This document shows positions 847-14,961 of a stretch of 51,411 bases of DNA, piece by piece. Origin of the DNA: Candidatus Zixiibacteriota bacterium. Lineage in GTDB: Bacteria > Zixibacteria > MSB-5A5 > GN15 > FEB-12. The position numbers and the translations under genes were made by a program. The DNA lies in the NCBI GenBank assembly GCA_019038695.1, contig JAHOYZ010000053.1:1-51411 (forward strand), written 5' to 3'. The notes beneath the pieces were generated by a model. That model worked only from the letters and a program-made list of their open reading frames with translations, did not search any database and had not been told where the DNA came from. Position 1 is the first letter of the stretch, and each line of letters opens with the position of its first letter.

Positions 847-1692
847 TTATCCACGGTTCGTATTGCGGAATCGTCCCCACAACGCCGCCAGGCCGTAGGC
901 AACGCCCGCTACAAGAATGATCGTTGCGCCCGCCGGCAAGTCAGGCGTATAGCTCACTCCCAAACCAACCGTCGAGAACAATGCACTCAGGAGAACCGCC
1001 ACCAACATCGCTTGTCGTAATGATCGAGTGAAACGCAAAGCTATCGCCGCCGGTAGAGTAAGCATAGCGATTACCATGACAATACCGACTACCGTAGTTA
1101 GTATCACAACCGTCAACGCCGTCACACTCAGCAACAACAGGTAGAAGAACTCCACATTGACCCGTCTTACACGGGTGAACTCCTGATCATAGCATACCGC
1201 CTGGAGACGATTGAAGAATAGAAACGTGACCAGCAGAATGAGAACGTCGAGTATCGCAATCAGCCAGAGGTCGCCTGTCCCGACCATGAGTATGTTGCCG
1301 AACAGGTAGCTCATGAGGTCCTGGTTGTATCCGGGCGTGCGGGAAATGAACACGATTCCCACCGCCATACCCACCGCCCATACAGCCCCGATAGCTGTGT
1401 CTTCACGTTCACGAGCGCGGAGACTGACCCAGCCGATAACGACCGCCGCAAGCAAAGCGGCCACCGCCGCACCATGCAAGGGTTGAAGCCATGTCCAGCC
1501 ACAACTCACGGAAAGATAGTGAGCCACACCCAAACCGCCGAATACACTGTGGGCAAGCCCTCCGGCCAGGTAGGTTATGCGCCGGGCAACAACGAAAGAC
1601 CCCACCACTCCGCACGCGATGCTTGCCAGCAGGCCAGCCAATAGTGCGTTCTGCAAGAAGGAATGATGAATTATGGCATCAATGAATTCCAT
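847..1692 (-). CDS. znuB: Zinc/manganese-type metal ABC transporter permease (ZnuB-like)
   Basis: This 281-residue, very hydrophobic protein has the architecture of the ABC-3 permease family (ZnuB/MntB/TroC), with about eight membrane segments and the typical beginning in which a membrane-embedded helix precedes a GGLAHSVFGGLG stretch. It forms the inner-membrane channel through which the ZnuA-like binding protein delivers a divalent metal, powered by the ATPase encoded just upstream. The ATG shares one base with the stop of znuC (TAATG), which implies translational coupling. The length is normal for the family. The metal (Zn versus Mn or Fe) cannot be fixed from this subunit; zinc is favoured by the His-rich partners. 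Confidence 0.9.
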   Translation of the reverse strand: MEFIDAIIHHSFLQNALLAGLLASIACGVVGSFVVARRITYLAGGLAHSVFGGLGVAHYLSVSCGWTWLQPLHGAAVAALLAAVVIGWVSLRAREREDTAIGAVWAVGMAVGIVFISRTPGYNQDLMSYLFGNILMVGTGDLWLIAILDVLILLVTFLFFNRLQAVCYDQEFTRVRRVNVEFFYLLLLSVTALTVVILTTVVGIVMVIAMLTLPAAIALRFTRSLRQAMLVAVLLSALFSTVGLGVSYTPDLPAGATIILVAGVAYGLAALWGRFRNTNRG

Positions 1693-2474
1693 TACAAATC
1701 TTCACTATGGTGATGATCATGTTGGTCGTGGCGTACAACACGCATCCCCGATCCATACAGTTCGCCGACGAATTCATTTTCCATGACGGAGGTCGGATGG
1801 ACCGCGACCGTCCGATTGACACACACTACCTGCTTGACAAAATCAGAGACAAAGGCAGGATCGTGAGACACCATAACAATGGTCAGATGCTTATTAAGTT
1901 GCTGGAGTAGCTCGTGCAGTTCTTTTTCCACCTGCCGATCAAGATTAGCCATCGGTTCATCAAGAAGCAACAGTTCCGGCTGGGCAGCCAGCGCACGACC
2001 AATCAGCAAACGTCGGTGCTGTCCTCCCGACAACTCTCCTGCCGGTCGCTCTGCTAACTCGGCTAAACCAACCTGTTGCAGTGCGTCAAGCGCAACCCTG
2101 GTATCTTCTGCCGGAAACGGACCCCACCTCATACCCCGGCGCAACCGTCCCATAAGAGCAACTTCCAGAACACTGATCGGAAACTGTCGGTCGGTATCTA
2201 CATGCTGAGGCAAATATCCGATACGAGACCTCGCCTCAAGTGGGGCAACACCCAATAACTTGACCGAACCCCGAGCGGGAGCCAATAAACCCAGCATGAT
2301 TTTCATCAGTGTCGTTTTGCCACCGCCATTGGGGCCGACGATCCAGACAAACTCGCGCTCATAGACTGTCAGGTTGACATCCTGGAGAACCGTTTGGCCA
2401 TTGTATGCAAATGACACGCCGTCGATTTCTATGATCGGTTTTCTATCGCCTGCTGAGTCTGTGTCCTTTCCCAC
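1692..2474 (-). CDS. znuC: Metal ABC transporter ATP-binding protein (ZnuC-like)
   Basis: This 260-residue ABC ATPase has all the expected motifs: Walker A GPNGGGKTT (47-55), Q-loop YLPQ (87-90), signature LSGGQ (148-152), Walker B LLLLDEP (168-174) and the switch SHD (203-205). It energises import of a divalent metal through the ZnuB-like permease. The C-terminus carries a His-rich patch (HDQHDHHH, 249-256), which is common in zinc-handling ATPases and may buffer or sense the metal. The gene starts with GTG two bases after the stop of znuA and overlaps znuB by one base, so the three genes form one transcription unit. Confidence 0.93.
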   Translation of the reverse strand: MGKDTDSAGDRKPIIEIDGVSFAYNGQTVLQDVNLTVYEREFVWIVGPNGGGKTTLMKIMLGLLAPARGSVKLLGVAPLEARSRIGYLPQHVDTDRQFPISVLEVALMGRLRRGMRWGPFPAEDTRVALDALQQVGLAELAERPAGELSGGQHRRLLIGRALAAQPELLLLDEPMANLDRQVEKELHELLQQLNKHLTIVMVSHDPAFVSDFVKQVVCVNRTVAVHPTSVMENEFVGELYGSGMRVVRHDQHDHHHSEDL

Positions 2475-2476
2475 GG

Positions 2477-3391
2477 CTACTTGTCCCCTGCGCGGGCTCC
2501 CAGAGCCGCTGCTATTTTGGCTGAGATTTCGACTAAATTATCAATGTAGTTCCGAGCCAGTGGATCGAGCGGGATCACCTCGCCACCTATCGCCTCGGCG
2601 ACAGCTTGGGCCGCTTTTCTGGAGAATTGAGGTTGAACGAAAATCGTTCGCACTGAGTCTTTCCGACAGCTGTCGACCAATTCGGCTAATTGCCGGGCCG
2701 ACGGTTCTTTGCCGTCCATCTCGATGGCGACCTGTTCCAGATCAAAGGCATTGCAGAAATATCCATAGGTCGGATGGAAGACATAGATTGTCCGCCGCTT
2801 GAGATCGGATAGCTCCTGGCGGATAGTCGCTGCAATTGAATCAAGCTGACCCTGGAACGATCTCAGATTTGATTCAAACGTCGGCCGTTGATCCGGCAGC
2901 AACACCGAGAGTGCCTTACAGATATTTTCCGCCTGCACTTTTACCAACGACGGGTCAAGCCAGATGTGAGGATCATGATTGCCAGCGTGTGTGTGACCGT
3001 GATCGTCATGGTCCATTGCGAGCAACTCGATTCCTCTACGAGTATCGACTATCTCAAGATTGTCAAAGCCGGATTTTATCTTCTCAAGCAATCGTTTTTC
3101 GAAGGGAAGCCCCACTGTGAATAGGATACTAGCCTCTGCCAAACAGGACATCTGACGCGGAGTAGGATCGTAGGTAACCGGCGATTGACCCGATCCAATC
3201 AGTACTTCCACTGTGACCTGCGATCCCCCAACCTGCTCTACAAAATATGCCTGCGGGGAAATACTGACAAACACAAGTGTTTTCCCTGTTGGCCTGTGTT
3301 CACCAGCCCAGATGAAAGAGGACAGGAACAACGTGATGGCCATAATTGTCACCACCCAGAGACAGCAGATTCTACTCATCTTGTTTGTCAT
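2477..3391 (-). CDS. znuA: Metal ABC transporter substrate-binding protein (ZnuA-like)
   Basis: This is a periplasmic cluster 9 (TroA/ZnuA fold) solute-binding protein. The ATG at 3391 is chosen because it sits four bases after the stop of the upstream regulator gene and gives a normal signal peptide (hydrophobic core about residues 11-28, ending near WAG); an upstream frame extension would overlap the regulator. The protein is then 304 residues. A His/Asp-rich loop (MDHDDHGHTHAGNHD, 126-140) precedes HIWLDP (H142, ligand). Further ligand candidates are H206 in FHPTYGYF and D276 in PLDPL. The usual first ligand in the SPHTYEPTP motif is Val here (SPVTYDPTP, 70-78), which is odd. It delivers metal to ZnuB/ZnuC. 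Confidence 0.88.
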   Translation of the reverse strand: MTNKMSRICCLWVVTIMAITLFLSSFIWAGEHRPTGKTLVFVSISPQAYFVEQVGGSQVTVEVLIGSGQSPVTYDPTPRQMSCLAEASILFTVGLPFEKRLLEKIKSGFDNLEIVDTRRGIELLAMDHDDHGHTHAGNHDPHIWLDPSLVKVQAENICKALSVLLPDQRPTFESNLRSFQGQLDSIAATIRQELSDLKRRTIYVFHPTYGYFCNAFDLEQVAIEMDGKEPSARQLAELVDSCRKDSVRTIFVQPQFSRKAAQAVAEAIGGEVIPLDPLARNYIDNLVEISAKIAAALGARAGDK

Positions 3392-3395
3392 GCGC

Positions 3396-3680
3396 TCATT
3401 TGTTCTTTTGCAGTCGTGGCGCAGATTCGCGCGAACAGACCAGGTGCAGTTCATGGCAGTCACTACACTCTTCCACTTGATGACTCTCATTGAACTGATC
3501 CCAATGATCTCGCTGGCTTGGAGTCAGAATACCGGTCCCCATACACAAAGGGCAGGTGCTATCGAGCGCCGCCAACAATGCCGAGCGAATGAAACTGGAT
3601 CGGTTGGGGATACCCTTGAGTGCTTCCAACAATGACTCATCAACCTTGAAAGTCACAATCTCAGATTTTCGCTTCACCAC
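3396..3680 (-). CDS. Ribbon-helix-helix regulator with Cys-rich C-terminal tail, probably metal-sensing
   Basis: This 94-residue protein starts at one of two adjacent GTG codons behind AAGGA. Residues 5-40 match the CopG/MetJ-type ribbon-helix-helix fold: a short strand SEIVTFKVD followed by two helices with RSSFIRSALLAAL. The second half has CPLC (43-46, in CPLCMGTG), CSDC (72-75), H76, H79 and C82, a plausible zinc site. The gene is first in the operon and is followed within four bases by znuA. By position and ligand content it is inferred to be the operon's own metal-responsive repressor, in the manner of NikR but with a different sensor domain. It is not a Fur/Zur protein. Confidence 0.75.
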   Translation of the reverse strand: MVKRKSEIVTFKVDESLLEALKGIPNRSSFIRSALLAALDSTCPLCMGTGILTPSQRDHWDQFNESHQVEECSDCHELHLVCSRESAPRLQKNK

Positions 3681-3723
3681 GTAACATCCTTGCCAAGATA
3701 ATAGTGTGTAACCTCTCTCTTGA

Positions 3724-3752
3724 ATTATTACATTGTATTACCTTCATGTCAA
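3724..3752 (-). promoter_or_regulatory. Promoter of the metal-uptake operon with 10-bp direct repeats
   Basis: On the minus strand TTGACA (3752-3747) is followed after 16-17 bases by TAATAA or AATAAT (3730-3724). The spacer and -10 contain GTAATA twice, at 3741-3736 and 3731-3726, separated by four bases, which is one helical turn. Tandem half-sites with this spacing are the usual target form for ribbon-helix-helix repressors, so this is a candidate operator for the regulator that starts 44 bases downstream. Confidence 0.55.
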
Positions 3753-3786: not shown

Positions 3787-4341
3787 TTAGTTCTCTTCAA
3801 GAATCTTTTTTATTCGGTCAATAGGCAGCCCGGAAACCTCGGCGACTTTTTCGGGGTCACCATTCCACCGAATAACCAGACGACGAACATACGCCACCTC
3901 GAATTCCGCCACCGCCGCAGAAAATGGTTCGCGACCGGTAATCTCCTCCCATTGGTGAGCCTCTTTGCGCATGGCCTGAAACCTCATCGCCCGGTCGATG
4001 GTGTAAATTATCTGTTCTTTTTTGAAGGGCTTGGTAATGTAATCAAAAGCACCCAGTTCCATCACCCTGGTAGCTGATTCCAACGAACCGAAGGCCGTGA
4101 TGATGATCACAAGTTCATCGCGCTGATGCTCCCTAACAAAGCGAAGGATATCCATTCCGTCCATACCGGGCATTCTCAGGTCGCTGATGATCAGGTCATA
4201 CCGCTGATCGCCGAGCACATCTTCCACTTCGAGAGAATTGCTAATGGTCGTGACTTCGTACTGCGTCTTTTCCCTGATGATCCGCTCCAACAGCTTCAGC
4301 ATGTGAGGTTCGTCATCTACGGCGAGAATCTTGAGTTTCAT
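3787..4341 (-). CDS. Response regulator with receiver domain and Fis-like C-terminus
   Basis: Residues 1-120 are a complete receiver domain: acidic pair D9/D10, phosphoacceptor D54 in SDLRMPGMDG, T82 and K104 in YITKPF. The 184-residue protein has no AAA+ or other output domain. Residues about 148-184 (VRRLVIRWNGDPEKVAEVSG) resemble the Fis-type helix-turn-helix of NtrC-class regulators, so it may be a short DNA-binding regulator. The ATG overlaps the stop of the histidine kinase gene by four bases (ATGA), making the kinase its likely partner. The target genes are unknown. Confidence 0.88.
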   Translation of the reverse strand: MKLKILAVDDEPHMLKLLERIIREKTQYEVTTISNSLEVEDVLGDQRYDLIISDLRMPGMDGMDILRFVREHQRDELVIIITAFGSLESATRVMELGAFDYITKPFKKEQIIYTIDRAMRFQAMRKEAHQWEEITGREPFSAAVAEFEVAYVRRLVIRWNGDPEKVAEVSGLPIDRIKKILEEN

Positions 4342-6518
4342 TTGGTCTTACCTTCCTGACCTTGTTTGGCATCCCTGATTCGCAGGGTTACGGTAAATGA
4401 TGTGCCACCCGGCTCATCAGGATCGTCCTCGGTTGAATGGCTGAAGAAATCAATCGAGCCACCAGATTTATTGACCATCCCATAGCATAACGACAACCCC
4501 AATCCGGTCCCCTCGCCGACTTTTTTGGTAGTGAAGAAGGGGTCGAAAACGCGCGCCTTCACCCTATCAGGGATACCACACCCGTTGTCGGTCACACGAA
4601 CACAAACCCGTCGCGATTCGATCCAGGCCGAAAGCGTCAGCATACCACCATTTTCCTTCATCGCCGCCAGAGCGTTATTGATGAGATTAAAAATGACTTG
4701 CTGGAACTCTCGCGGATCGCCTGCGACCCTGGGCAAATCATCAGCTACTTCGACAACAACTTGTACTTTCTTGTTATCCAGGGTAGTACTCACGATGTTC
4801 AATACTGAAGTCAGACTGTCGTTGACATCAACGCTCGTTTGCTCCCCCTCACTGACACGAGCGAATCCCAGTAAATGCTCCACGGTTTTCTTGGCATTCT
4901 CCGCATTCTCTTCAATTATCTTCAGGTCCTCCCGTTCGGAAGAGCCTTTAGGAAATTTTTCCTTGAGAAGATCGGTAAACCCAAGGATCACACCCAGAGG
5001 ATTATTTATCTCATGTGCCACACCGGCGGCGAGGGTCCCAATCGAAGCCAGCTTCTCAGTGCCATACAAGTGCTGCTCAACCGCAACTTCCTCGGTGACA
5101 TCCTTGGTAATACCAACATTGCCAATAATCTCACCATCACGTTCCCGCACTACCGCCCTTGAGATATCCACCCAAATTCGACATCCATCGGCAGTAACTC
5201 GCTGGGTCCGGTAGTTACGAATGGATCCGTGTTTGAGAACTTCGTCCCGCATCCGCCCTAACTCCCGTTCGGCATCGAATTCAGGCGGTATGATCCGGTG
5301 TAGAGTTCGCCCTATCATCTCTTTCTCGGTATACCCGAAGATAAGTTCAGCCCCATGGTTCCAGACGAGTACACGGCTGTCGTTGTCCATGAGAATAATG
5401 CCATCTACCGAATGCCTCATGATACTCGAAAGGTACTCCTCCTGCTCCACTACCCTACGGAACAGAGCCTTGGCCATGCGGCGCTCATAGATTACAACCA
5501 CAAGACCCAGCAGACACAAACCCAGAATGATCGCTGCCTCAGCAGTAATGTGCCGCACAGTAGTACTCTCAATAGCCTTGACAACGTCACTCTCCGGAGT
5601 ATTTACAGCGACCGACCAATAGCTCTCCTCAGGCAATAGCGGACTCTTCACGGGAGCAAAGGCTAAGAGCATGGGAATCGGAGTTAGCCAGTCATTGCGG
5701 CTCAGGCCGGAATAGATATCCGTACCAGCTTCTCCGGCCAACATCCTCTGCACGATGACACTGTCGATCTTCGAGAAATCACTGCCCGGAGATGCCTTGG
5801 AATGTGCAGCCGAAGCATTCAGAGCAATGAACTTGCTATGCGGGTGAAAGAGAAACCGGCCAGTGTCATCAATAATCCAGGTGTAACCTGACCACTCTGA
5901 TTGCATATCACTATCTAAATCACCGACCAGACGATTTAGATCAAGCCGCAGGTAGAGAATACCTCCCTCGTGGTCGGCTTCCAGCTGCATACAAAGCAAA
6001 CCTTCAATACGAAAAGACGTAGTAACAGAATCGATTGATGTCATCGGAGCTAAGAAAATCAATCGTTCACTATGCAGGCTGTGCTTAGCCTTGAGCAAAT
6101 TGTAGGGTAGCGGGGTCAGGTCAGAACCTGCATAACGAGCCACCAATCCACCGACATCAGAATACAGACCCGCTTCCAATATCCCTCTTGACGCTCCGGC
6201 ATGCACCACATGCTGCATAACCTTCGTGATCTCATCCGATCCCATACGATTGAGATCATATGTTGACAGCTGCTTCAGCCCCATTTGAGCATCCTGCAAG
6301 CGCGTACCAATCTGCGCCGCGGCAACCCGCGCGAGCATTAGTTGCTGGCGATTGAAATCATCCGTAACGCGACTACGCATCAACCCTGCATCATAATAGA
6401 CAATGTACAATCCGAGGCACAGCATACAGAAGATCGAAGCTGTGCTCAACCACATCAATCCTCTAATCCGTTTTATCTTACGGTCCTGAAGTTGCTTCCG
6501 ATCCGGGACCGGGCTCAT
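4338..6518 (-). CDS. Membrane-bound sensor histidine kinase with PAS domain
   Basis: The 726 residues run as: membrane segment 20-41; an extracytoplasmic sensor region of about 280 residues, probably Cache-like; membrane segment 327-345; PAS domain 362-480 (WNHGAELIFGYTEKEMIG); DHp domain with phospho-His H502 in AHEINNPLG; and an ATPase domain with N-box NLINNA (611-616), G1 DNGCGIP (644-650) and G2 GTGLGL (670-675). It should sense an external signal and phosphorylate the response regulator encoded directly downstream. Its ATG overlaps the stop of the PEP-synthase-like gene and its stop overlaps the regulator start, both by four bases. The ligand is unknown. Confidence 0.92.
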   Translation of the reverse strand: MSPVPDRKQLQDRKIKRIRGLMWLSTASIFCMLCLGLYIVYYDAGLMRSRVTDDFNRQQLMLARVAAAQIGTRLQDAQMGLKQLSTYDLNRMGSDEITKVMQHVVHAGASRGILEAGLYSDVGGLVARYAGSDLTPLPYNLLKAKHSLHSERLIFLAPMTSIDSVTTSFRIEGLLCMQLEADHEGGILYLRLDLNRLVGDLDSDMQSEWSGYTWIIDDTGRFLFHPHSKFIALNASAAHSKASPGSDFSKIDSVIVQRMLAGEAGTDIYSGLSRNDWLTPIPMLLAFAPVKSPLLPEESYWSVAVNTPESDVVKAIESTTVRHITAEAAIILGLCLLGLVVVIYERRMAKALFRRVVEQEEYLSSIMRHSVDGIILMDNDSRVLVWNHGAELIFGYTEKEMIGRTLHRIIPPEFDAERELGRMRDEVLKHGSIRNYRTQRVTADGCRIWVDISRAVVRERDGEIIGNVGITKDVTEEVAVEQHLYGTEKLASIGTLAAGVAHEINNPLGVILGFTDLLKEKFPKGSSEREDLKIIEENAENAKKTVEHLLGFARVSEGEQTSVDVNDSLTSVLNIVSTTLDNKKVQVVVEVADDLPRVAGDPREFQQVIFNLINNALAAMKENGGMLTLSAWIESRRVCVRVTDNGCGIPDRVKARVFDPFFTTKKVGEGTGLGLSLCYGMVNKSGGSIDFFSHSTEDDPDEPGGTSFTVTLRIRDAKQGQEGKTK

Positions 6519-12658: not shown

Positions 12659-12686
12659 TTGTTCATAGCCTCTTTTGTGCTATATT
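12659..12686 (+). promoter_or_regulatory. Candidate promoter of the FG-GAP gene
   Basis: TTGTTC (12659-12664), a 16-base spacer and TATATT (12681-12686) lie 46 bases before the ATG at 12733. The ribosome-binding site AAGGAGAT (12718-12725) is strong and fixes that start. Confidence 0.5.
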
Positions 12687-12732
12687 GACTCTCAAGGAGT
12701 ACTCACATACTACTTCTAAGGAGATTACAAAC

Positions 12733-14961
12733 ATGAAGTCTCTAACACTATTCAGAAGTTGCATCTTAGTTGCCTTGCTGGTGACACTATCAAGTATTAG
12801 TGCTTTCTCACAGGATATGTTTGACGCCAGAATGGACTATGCCGCCGGAATTGCCCCTCTCTCTGTTTACTCAATTGATTTTAACGGCGATGGCTGCAAT
12901 GATCTGGTGGCTGCGAACTATACGTCTGACGATGTTTCGATATTGCTGGGCAATGGAGACGGTACATTCCAGTCTGCGGTTAACTATGCCACCGGAGATG
13001 GTCCTTACTCTGTTTTCTCGATTGATTTTAACGGCGATGGTCACAATGATCTGGTGACTGCGAACTATTACTCTGACGATGCTTCGATACTGCTGGGTAA
13101 TGGGGACGGAACATTCCAGAGTGCGGTTAACTATGTCGCCGGAAATGCCCCTATCTCTGTTTTCTCGATTGATTTTAACGGCGATGGTCACAATGATCTA
13201 GCCACTGCGAACAGATACTCTGACGATGTTTCGATACTGCTAGGCAATGGCGACGGAACCTTCCAGAGTGTAGTTAACTATACCACAGGAGATGATCCTC
13301 GTTCTGTTTTCTCGATTGATTTTAACGGCGATGGCGACAATGATCTGGCGACTGCGAACGCGTACTCTGACAATGTTTCGATACTGCTGGGGAATGGCGA
13401 CGGTACCTTCCAGTCTGCTGTTAACTATGCTGCCGGAGATGATCCTTCCTCTGTTTTCTCGATTGATTTTAACGGTGATAGTTACAATGATCTGGCGACT
13501 GCGAACGTAAGCTCTGACAATGTTTCGATACTGCTGGGCAATGGAGACGGTACCTTCCAGACTGCGGTTAACTATGTTGCCGGAAATGGCACTTGGTCTG
13601 TTTTCTCGATTGATCTTAACGACGATACCATACCTGATCTGGCGACTGCAAACGCATACTCTGACGATGTTTCGATACTGCTGGGCAATGGCGACGGAAC
13701 CTTCCAGAGCGCGGTTAACTATGCCACCGGAGATGGCCCTTACTCTGTTTTCTCGATTGACTTTAATGGCGATGGCAACTATGATCTGGCGACTGCGAAT
13801 TACTTATCTGACAATGTTTCGATACTGCTGGGCAATGGCGACGGTACATTCCAGAGTGCGGTTAACTATGCCGTCGGAGATTATCCTCGTTCTGTTTTCT
13901 CGATTAATTTTAATGGCGATGACTACAATGATCTGGCGACTGCGAACTGGAACTCTGACGATGTTTCGATATTGCTGGGCAATGGGGATGGAACATTCCA
14001 GAGTACGGTTAGCTATACCGCCGGAGATGGTCCTTTCTCTGTTTTCTCGATTGATTTTAACGGCGATGGCGACAATGATCTGGCGACTGCGAACCGTGAG
14101 TCTGACAATGTTTCGATACTGCTGGGCAATGGCAACGGAACCTTCCAGACTGCAGTTAACTATGCCGCTGGAGTTCGCCCTATCTCTGTTTTCTCGATTG
14201 ATTTTAACGGCGATGGCTACAATGATCTGGCAACTGCGAACCAAGGCTCTGAGGATGTTTCGATACTGCTGGGCAATGGAGACGGAACATTCCAGTCTGC
14301 GGATAACTATACCGCCGGAGGCGGCCCTACCTCTGTTTTCTCGATTGATTTTAACGGCGATGGCGACAATGATCTGGCGACTGCAAACTATAACTCTGAC
14401 GATGTTTCGATATTGCTGGGCAATGGCGACGGCACCTTCCAGAGTGCGATTAACTATGCCGCCGGAGATCAACCTTGGTCTGTTTTCTCGATTGATTTTG
14501 ATGGCGATGGTCATAATGATCTGGTGACTGCGAACGTAGGCTCTGACGATGTTTCGATACTGCTGGGCAATGGGGACGGAACATTCCAGTCTGCGGTTAA
14601 CTATGCCACCGGAAATGGCCCTTTCTCTGTTTTCTCGATTGATTTCAACGGCGATGGTAATAATGATCTGGCGACTGCGAACCGTGACTCTGATAATATT
14701 TCGATACTTCTCAATCTAACTGGTCCGTACACCTGCTGCAATGGTGACGGCATGCGCGGCAATGTCGACTATGTATTGCCCGATGAAATCAACATTGCTG
14801 ACCTGACTTACCTTGTCGCCTACCTGTTTACCGGAGGGTCGGAGCCACCGTGTATAGATGAGGCTGACGTAGACGGCAATGACGAGATCAATATAGGCGA
14901 CCTGACCTATCTGGTTTCGTACTTGTTCACTGGAGGACCTGCACCGGCGGCGTGTCCGTAG
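12733..14961 (+). CDS. Secreted FG-GAP repeat protein with dockerin-like C-terminus
   Basis: The ATG at 12733, seven bases after AAGGAGAT, gives 742 residues beginning with a clear signal peptide (MKSLTLFRSCILVALLV to about SAFSQ). Thirteen FG-GAP repeats of exactly 49 residues follow, each with SVFSIDFNGDG-NDLATAN and SILLGNGDGTFQ. The Asp-rich loops should bind calcium and the array should fold as one or two beta-propellers. The last about 75 residues are a dockerin-like module (NVDYVLPDEINIADL and DVDGNDEINIGDL). The protein is extracellular or surface-bound and probably binds a ligand or partner. Its closest relatives are at both window ends. Repeats differ mainly at two short codon clusters. 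No enzymatic motif is present. Confidence 0.93.
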   Translation: MKSLTLFRSCILVALLVTLSSISAFSQDMFDARMDYAAGIAPLSVYSIDFNGDGCNDLVAANYTSDDVSILLGNGDGTFQSAVNYATGDGPYSVFSIDFNGDGHNDLVTANYYSDDASILLGNGDGTFQSAVNYVAGNAPISVFSIDFNGDGHNDLATANRYSDDVSILLGNGDGTFQSVVNYTTGDDPRSVFSIDFNGDGDNDLATANAYSDNVSILLGNGDGTFQSAVNYAAGDDPSSVFSIDFNGDSYNDLATANVSSDNVSILLGNGDGTFQTAVNYVAGNGTWSVFSIDLNDDTIPDLATANAYSDDVSILLGNGDGTFQSAVNYATGDGPYSVFSIDFNGDGNYDLATANYLSDNVSILLGNGDGTFQSAVNYAVGDYPRSVFSINFNGDDYNDLATANWNSDDVSILLGNGDGTFQSTVSYTAGDGPFSVFSIDFNGDGDNDLATANRESDNVSILLGNGNGTFQTAVNYAAGVRPISVFSIDFNGDGYNDLATANQGSEDVSILLGNGDGTFQSADNYTAGGGPTSVFSIDFNGDGDNDLATANYNSDDVSILLGNGDGTFQSAINYAAGDQPWSVFSIDFDGDGHNDLVTANVGSDDVSILLGNGDGTFQSAVNYATGNGPFSVFSIDFNGDGNNDLATANRDSDNISILLNLTGPYTCCNGDGMRGNVDYVLPDEINIADLTYLVAYLFTGGSEPPCIDEADVDGNDEINIGDLTYLVSYLFTGGPAPAACP
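12832..14715 (+). repeat. Tandem array of thirteen 147-bp coding repeats
   Basis: The SVxSID codons recur with exact 147-bp spacing from 12862 to 14626, which is twelve periods and thirteen units with no insertion or deletion. Units are nearly identical in nucleotide sequence outside two variable codon clusters, so recent duplication or gene conversion is likely. The same unit occurs at 1-450 and, on the minus strand, at 50820-51411. Confidence 0.95.

Follow-up and report, generated by a model that had tools for sequence, protein, structure and literature searches.

A ribbon-helix-helix protein with a Cys/His half as a probable zinc-responsive repressor of the znuABC operon it leads

The rhh-znuABC operon and its promoter

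The stretch of DNA analysed here, referred to throughout as the window, is contig 53 (JAHOYZ010000053.1; 51,411 nucleotides) of the 3.28 Mb genome of a Candidatus Zixiibacteriota bacterium, whose closest named kin in a contig scan are MAGs of Candidatus Zixiibacteriota. It carries a tight operon in the order rhh-znuA-znuC-znuB, the first gene of which encodes a small ribbon-helix-helix (RHH) protein and is preceded by a promoter that overlaps a conserved box. The features, all on the minus strand, are as follows:

847..1692, minus strand: znuB, ABC-3 permease (PF00950, E 2.5e-72)
1692..2474, minus strand: znuC, ABC ATPase (ABC_tran match)
2477..3391, minus strand: znuA, zinc-binding protein with a His-rich loop (PF01297, E 1.7e-68)
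3396..3680, minus strand: gene of the putative RHH regulator, an ORF of 94 amino acids with a GTG start at 3680
3435..3554, minus strand: Cys/His half of the RHH protein, residues 43-82, with C43, C46, H59, H67, C72, C75 and C82 invariant in 81/81
3555..3665, minus strand: predicted DNA-binding half, residues 6-42, NikR-type RHH by structure and profile alignment with NikR
3724..3729, minus strand: -10 hexamer AATAAT, 17 nt from the -35 hexamer and overlapping the operator
3725..3741, minus strand: operator GTAATACAATGTAATAA, consensus GTAWTAC-N3-GTAWTAC, a conserved box upstream of relatives
3747..3752, minus strand: -35 hexamer TTGACA, from promoter scoring

The stop codon of the RHH gene, for which a GTG at 3677 is a second possible start, is separated from the znuA start by 4 nt, and znuC and znuB overlap by 1 base. 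An earlier note on this DNA, made from the sequence alone, had put the RHH gene at the head of a metal-uptake operon, and the matches to ZnuA, ABC_tran and ABC-3 downstream bear this out. The ZnuA-family protein of the window has 5 His within the 30 residues preceding DPHIW, and its NCBIfam matches include MntC, below cut-off. Directly upstream of the RHH gene lie a response regulator and a PAS histidine kinase (window 3787-6518), a pair that is also found upstream of the regulator in two related genomes, G007 and G022 (L017; L185). Elsewhere in the window, a long ORF at 12685-14961 consists of repeated FNGDG/ILLGNGDG units, which we take to be FG-GAP/VCBS-like, and is overlapped by spurious ORFs on both strands.

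The promoter TTGACA-17-AATAAT scores 11/12, with a TG preceding the -10 hexamer. Its spacer and part of its -10 hexamer are occupied by GTAATACAATGTAATA (3741-3726, minus strand), which contains GTAATA repeats 10 bp apart. These had been described in the earlier note as direct repeats over the -10 region, spaced by one helical turn; they are present and so spaced, but the underlying element is really a pair of 7-bp palindromes, GTAWTAC, whose centres lie 10 bp, that is, one helical turn, apart. An exact match to GTAWTACNNNGTAWTA is found only at the rhh-znuABC promoter, in the window as well as genome-wide (3.28 Mb).

The two halves of the RHH protein

The N-terminal half of the protein has the strand-helix-helix arrangement of the RHH superfamily, as indicated by the predicted helices, the structural alignment with NikR and the profile comparison. 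In an AlphaFold2 model built from 64 sequences (mean pLDDT 80), helices span residues 15-22 and 27-41 (pLDDT about 90), and the N-terminal strand is left unassigned in the monomer. Foldseek found no structural match to this model at E 0.001. VIA-align gave Escherichia coli NikR (2hza, residues 1-43) as the leading match (Z 2.5, rmsd 1.8, 37 aligned, 40% identity), followed by Helicobacter pylori NikR bound to DNA (Z 2.4, rmsd 1.7, 39 aligned) and the plasmid RHH regulator Reg576 (Z 2.3, rmsd 6.1, 55 aligned), these Z values being low, as expected for a domain of 40 residues, and tied where they differ by less than 1. The comparison with E. coli NikR by hhalign gave a probability of 83%, with 43% identity across 42 columns, the alignment stopping a few residues inside the Cys/His half; only this profile comparison was significant, whereas BLASTP with the window protein alone against NikR was not (E 1.0). 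Similarly, the window protein does not reach the cut-off of Pfam RHH_1 (14.4 bits vs 20.5), which matches 6/17 alignment members with a best E of 0.012. The RHH half also resembles the aCcr1 cell cycle regulators (NF053762; E 1.9e-5, 24.4 bits vs a cut-off of 60), but that match ends at residue 36, ahead of the Cys/His half, and the role of the family is unrelated.

The Cys/His half comprises 40 residues and carries CPLCMGTG, H59, H67, C72-S-D-C75-H76, H79 and C82. Among 81 distinct proteins of the family, seven potential metal ligands, five Cys and two His, are unchanged in all, while H79 and H76 are retained in 67/81 and 61/81, respectively. The residues singled out earlier, CPLC, CSDCH, H79 and C82, are present as described, but H79 drops out of the invariant set, and H59 and H67, which belong to it, had been overlooked. 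With respect to known zinc centres, the DnaJ CXXCXGXG model gives weak matches in 17/17 members of the first alignment (best E 0.00022), with the window protein below the curated Pfam cut-off, and solved structures, searched by sequence, yielded weak matches to anti-TRAP and DnaJ only, anti-TRAP being on top (E 0.0037). In common with these centres, the RHH protein has a CPxCxGxG knuckle, but it lacks the paired CXXCXGXG repeats, its second knuckle being CxxC(H), and possesses the additional invariant residues H59, H67 and C82.

Relatives, gene neighbourhoods and the operator

A homologue of the RHH protein is encoded in 39 of 98 related genomes (the genome of the window included), all 39 of which have a ZnuA-family gene, compared with 31 of the 59 genomes without a homologue. 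A ZnuA match adjoins the homologue in 38/39, with G093 as the exception, and among 30 fetched loci the downstream gene is ZnuA in 29 and ZnuC in 1. A contig scan found 183 relatives; the best 80 of these, which were used, come from MAGs titled Zixiibacteriota, Planctomycetota/Phycisphaerae/Pirellulales, Spirochaetes, Deltaproteobacteria/Syntrophus/Desulfomonile, Firmicutes/Bacillota and Lentisphaerae. Pooled with the 30 loci and freed of near-duplicates (29/110), they make up the 81 distinct relatives. In 78 of them at least 600 bp are available downstream (3/81 with less were excluded from this count), and the next gene is znuA in 70 and znuC in 2, the remaining 6 having neither in that position. 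The expectation of the earlier note that homologues stay beside znuABC thus holds, both in the related genomes (38/39) and in the wider set (72/78). The distribution is patchy, given that the regulator occurs in 11/198 sampled genomes of the Syntrophus phylum.

Some neighbourhoods hold other genes. CobW/COG0523 genes adjoin the regulator in three loci (L117, L118, L134). In two MAGs from planctomycetes (L072:6311-6961 and L127:6358-7191), the regulator is followed by a gene for a His-rich protein of membrane type, for which Pfam gave no family above cut-off; no ZnuA match was found in G115. Both proteins are candidates for a zinc transporter or uptake partner. In a Spirochaetaceae subgroup (L105, L106, L109, L113, L138), the protein is intact and the box mostly absent, and among the neighbours are a GAF-HD protein and an ABC transporter that depends on a binding protein and belongs to another class.

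Upstream regions of up to 300 bp from the 81 relatives were scanned for the box, which is found at 12 or more of its 14 positions in 77/81, compared with 3/1620 Markov-shuffled regions; four regions lack it at this threshold. The conservation of the repeat upstream of homologues, for which the earlier note had called, therefore extends across phyla. A spacer of 3 is strongly preferred (77/81), whereas other spacers from 0 to 8 give 0 to 16/81, the runner-up being 6 (16/81). TTGAC lies 8-21 nt upstream of the box in 52/77, mostly at 11, so that the box usually covers the spacer and the -10 hexamer, as expected of a repressor. The box also recurs in a held-out set of eight unused loci, taken from the 11 matches in the 198 Syntrophus-phylum genomes after leaving out the query, one locus already included and one for which no locus was fetched: all eight have it at 13 or 14 of 14 positions, followed by znuA (5) or znuC (3).

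If the box is the site of the regulator, it should also precede znuA where the two genes are apart. Unlinked ZnuA-family genes with a box are indeed found in G093, G120, G117 (two genes), G128, G129, G118 and G124. In G093, the gene after the regulator is znuC, and znuA stands elsewhere with a perfect box that begins 57 bp ahead of its start codon; a perfect box is likewise found before the unlinked znuA of G120. G117, from Spirochaetaceae, has the regulator next to cobW under a promoter that lacks an exact box, and its 3.4 Mb contain only two exact boxes, one before a znuABC set that has a CobW/COG0523 gene behind it and one before another ZnuA-family gene; the latter recurs in G128 and G129. 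Two 12-of-14 boxes precede a znuA fragment in G118, and G124 has a 12-of-14 box 23 bp ahead of the gene for a very His-rich ZnuA, on the same contig as the regulator. A further box of G093 (L184:1890-5000) precedes what may be an operon for zinc uptake across the outer membrane, with genes for a small secreted protein containing His and Cys, a predicted lipoprotein and a TonB-dependent receptor.

No box at 12 or more of 14 positions was found before znuA in 20 genomes without the regulator, hand-picked from 31 such genomes, or before 17 second ZnuA-family genes of regulator-bearing genomes. An exact box is present in 35/39 genomes with the regulator vs 5/59 without, although Fisher tests on such genome counts take no account of shared ancestry; the tests on held-out loci and on unlinked targets are independent of them. 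In G115 and G116 the box is confined to the regulator's own promoter. In four genomes of one Spirochaetaceae subgroup (G125, G126, G127, G130), the regulator is present, with no exact box in the genome and no box at 12 or more of 14 positions at the ZnuA-family loci found there. In G132, the region upstream of the regulator itself (L084) reaches 10/14 only, and an exact box with TTGAC, which could be attributed to no gene, lies about 190 bp from a contig end.

Other occurrences of the box do not enlarge the regulon. In the genome of the window, 10 of 11 other one-mismatch sites were examined as signs of a larger regulon, and no link to a zinc gene emerged: six fall within predicted reading frames that exceed 250 bases, four are outside long frames and have no recognised zinc gene as a neighbour, and the ten are taken as chance. 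The eleventh, C53:3725, is the same operator on the opposite strand. An apparent ten-site regulon in G063 was rejected, since nine of its sites belong to a dispersed repeat, their flanks being shared (L173-L181); these copies, each with a perfect operator sequence, may titrate the regulator or be incidental. The extra sites of G103 were likewise discarded as targets, being repeats at contig ends (L226, L227, L228), again with a perfect operator sequence and perhaps the end of a mobile element. In genomes without the RHH gene, the exact boxes of G004, G032 and G042 (inside genes), of G018 (between convergent genes) and of G078 (intergenic) are ascribed to chance. Boxes in G030, G060 and G070 were set aside as lying inside genes, while those at G057:C51 and G022:C266 stand outside long frames; for the sites of G107:C140, G105, G131, G140, G133 and G141, a clear zinc target was not found.

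The metal probably sensed and the place of the protein among metal regulators

A His-rich loop marks the zinc type of ZnuA. Counted as present where at least three His fall within the 30 residues preceding DPxxW, such a loop occurs in 55/64 operator-linked ZnuA proteins (6 of the 70 have no DPxxW motif) and in 0/9 operator-less paralogues (8 of 17 have no such motif). The CobW/COG0523 family is tied to zinc starvation. These loops, together with the CobW/COG0523 neighbours, make zinc the likely sensed metal. The earlier proposal of a zinc regulator of znuABC is supported by linkage and by the conserved operator, and the protein is best read, with a probability of about 0.83, as a zinc-responsive RHH repressor of zinc import that joins a NikR-like DNA-binding half to an unrelated sensor.

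According to this reading, a dimer would form the RHH unit and insert its two-stranded sheet into one GTAWTAC palindrome, and two dimers would occupy GTAWTAC-N3-GTAWTAC as neighbours spaced by one helical turn, where, lying over the promoter spacer and the -10 hexamer, they would block RNA polymerase. The C-terminal Cys/His domain is predicted to bind zinc, with one DnaJ-like knuckle pair (C43, C46, C72, C75) as a probable structural site of the DnaJ/anti-TRAP kind, and H59, H67 and C82, perhaps with H79 or H76, as a probable second site for sensing. In the zinc-replete cell, the loaded form would repress its own operon, rhh-znuABC, with zinc as the putative co-repressor; when zinc drops, the repressor would release the DNA and import would be switched on.

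It could be argued that the repressor of these operons senses manganese or iron and that its Cys/His domain holds structural zinc only, given that PF01297 takes in proteins that bind Mn or Fe as well, that MntC is among the sub-cut-off matches and that one operator-linked ZnuA (L230) is without the His loop. This appears improbable, however, because the box accompanies ZnuA proteins with His-rich loops, whereas their His-poor paralogues in the same genomes lack it, because CobW/COG0523 genes occur in the target or regulator neighbourhoods, and because a set of five Cys and two His is better suited to zinc than to Mn(II) or Fe(II). An even smaller chance is given to a protein in which zinc is structural only and which represses its own operon without regulation or in response to some other signal: the likeness of CPLCxGTG to the structural zinc centres of DnaJ and anti-TRAP speaks for it, but seven invariant ligands exceed the need of one structural site, and the constant company of zinc import implies a zinc signal.

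There is also the view that the RHH protein is a passenger, for example an antitoxin, and that another factor such as Zur uses the box. RHH folds are common among antitoxins, and Fur-family proteins occur in 83/98 relatives; yet the box tracks the RHH gene (35/39 vs 5/59) and not znuA itself (0/20), no toxin-like partner adjoins the RHH gene in the window, and no Fur-family gene was detected in 6/39 regulator-bearing genomes, which are incomplete (81-97% complete), so that this view is very hard to sustain. The genome of the window has two Fur-family proteins, whose best models are PerR and Fur, far below any curated cut-off, and a Zur may be present alongside the RHH regulator.

Among known regulators, the zinc-responsive repressor proposed here would share with Zur the repression of znuABC under plentiful zinc, but Zur has a winged helix in place of the RHH fold. 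According to a 2018 review, the regulators that raise zinc import are Fur-family Zur and MarR-family AdcR only (PMC6103462). AdcR thus has the same role in zinc uptake control, but a different DNA-binding fold and sensor. In agreement with the earlier note, which had placed the protein outside the Fur/Zur, MarR-AdcR and ArsR families, Pfam gave no match at E 1 to the FUR domain (PF01475) or to the winged-helix domains of MarR and ArsR (ArsR/SmtB).

The closest parallel is NikR, and here too the note's analogy is upheld, the DNA-binding half aligning with the RHH domain of NikR and the sensor half being unrelated. Both proteins have the same type of RHH half, with a metal domain, here a predicted one, fused behind it, and NikR represses a metal-import operon (nikABCDE), as is proposed for the present protein. 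They differ in that the C-terminal nickel-binding domain of NikR was found in the RHH protein by neither Pfam nor NCBIfam; E. coli NikR has 133 residues vs 94 here; and NikR is concerned with nickel import genes, whereas the present protein is linked to znuABC and has a Cys-rich putative sensor. The NikR operator, as given in a 2019 review, is GTATGA-N16-TCATAC, and the same review calls NikR the sole metal-regulated RHH protein (PMC7055735). Its half-sites are therefore 16 bp apart, compared with 3 bp here in 77/81. Taken together, these differences place the protein in none of the Zur, AdcR, ArsR and NikR families; it would work like them.

A literature search, preprints and most subscription journals excluded, returned no description of an RHH or CopG zinc-uptake regulator. 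Treponema denticola TDE0264, described as a "ribbon-helix-helix protein, CopG family" and reported to be induced 2.9-fold by oxygen (PMC2965109), and pden0071 of Paracoccus (PMC5387054) are leads for possible members of the family.

It is likely that the family represents a second, independent metal-sensing RHH repressor, with a NikR-type half, a DnaJ/anti-TRAP-like sensor and a box of its own, spread over several phyla (Zixibacteria, Planctomycetes, Spirochaetes, deltaproteobacterial lineages, Firmicutes and Lentisphaerae among the matches listed) and standing in where Zur is missing, though perhaps not replacing Zur everywhere. If true, this would add a second metal-sensing RHH protein and a third type of zinc-uptake regulator. 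The 17-bp box would be specific enough to flag zinc-uptake genes from sequence in little-studied phyla, including candidates of unknown family, and the protein, with its 94 residues, would offer a compact system for the study of zinc sensing.
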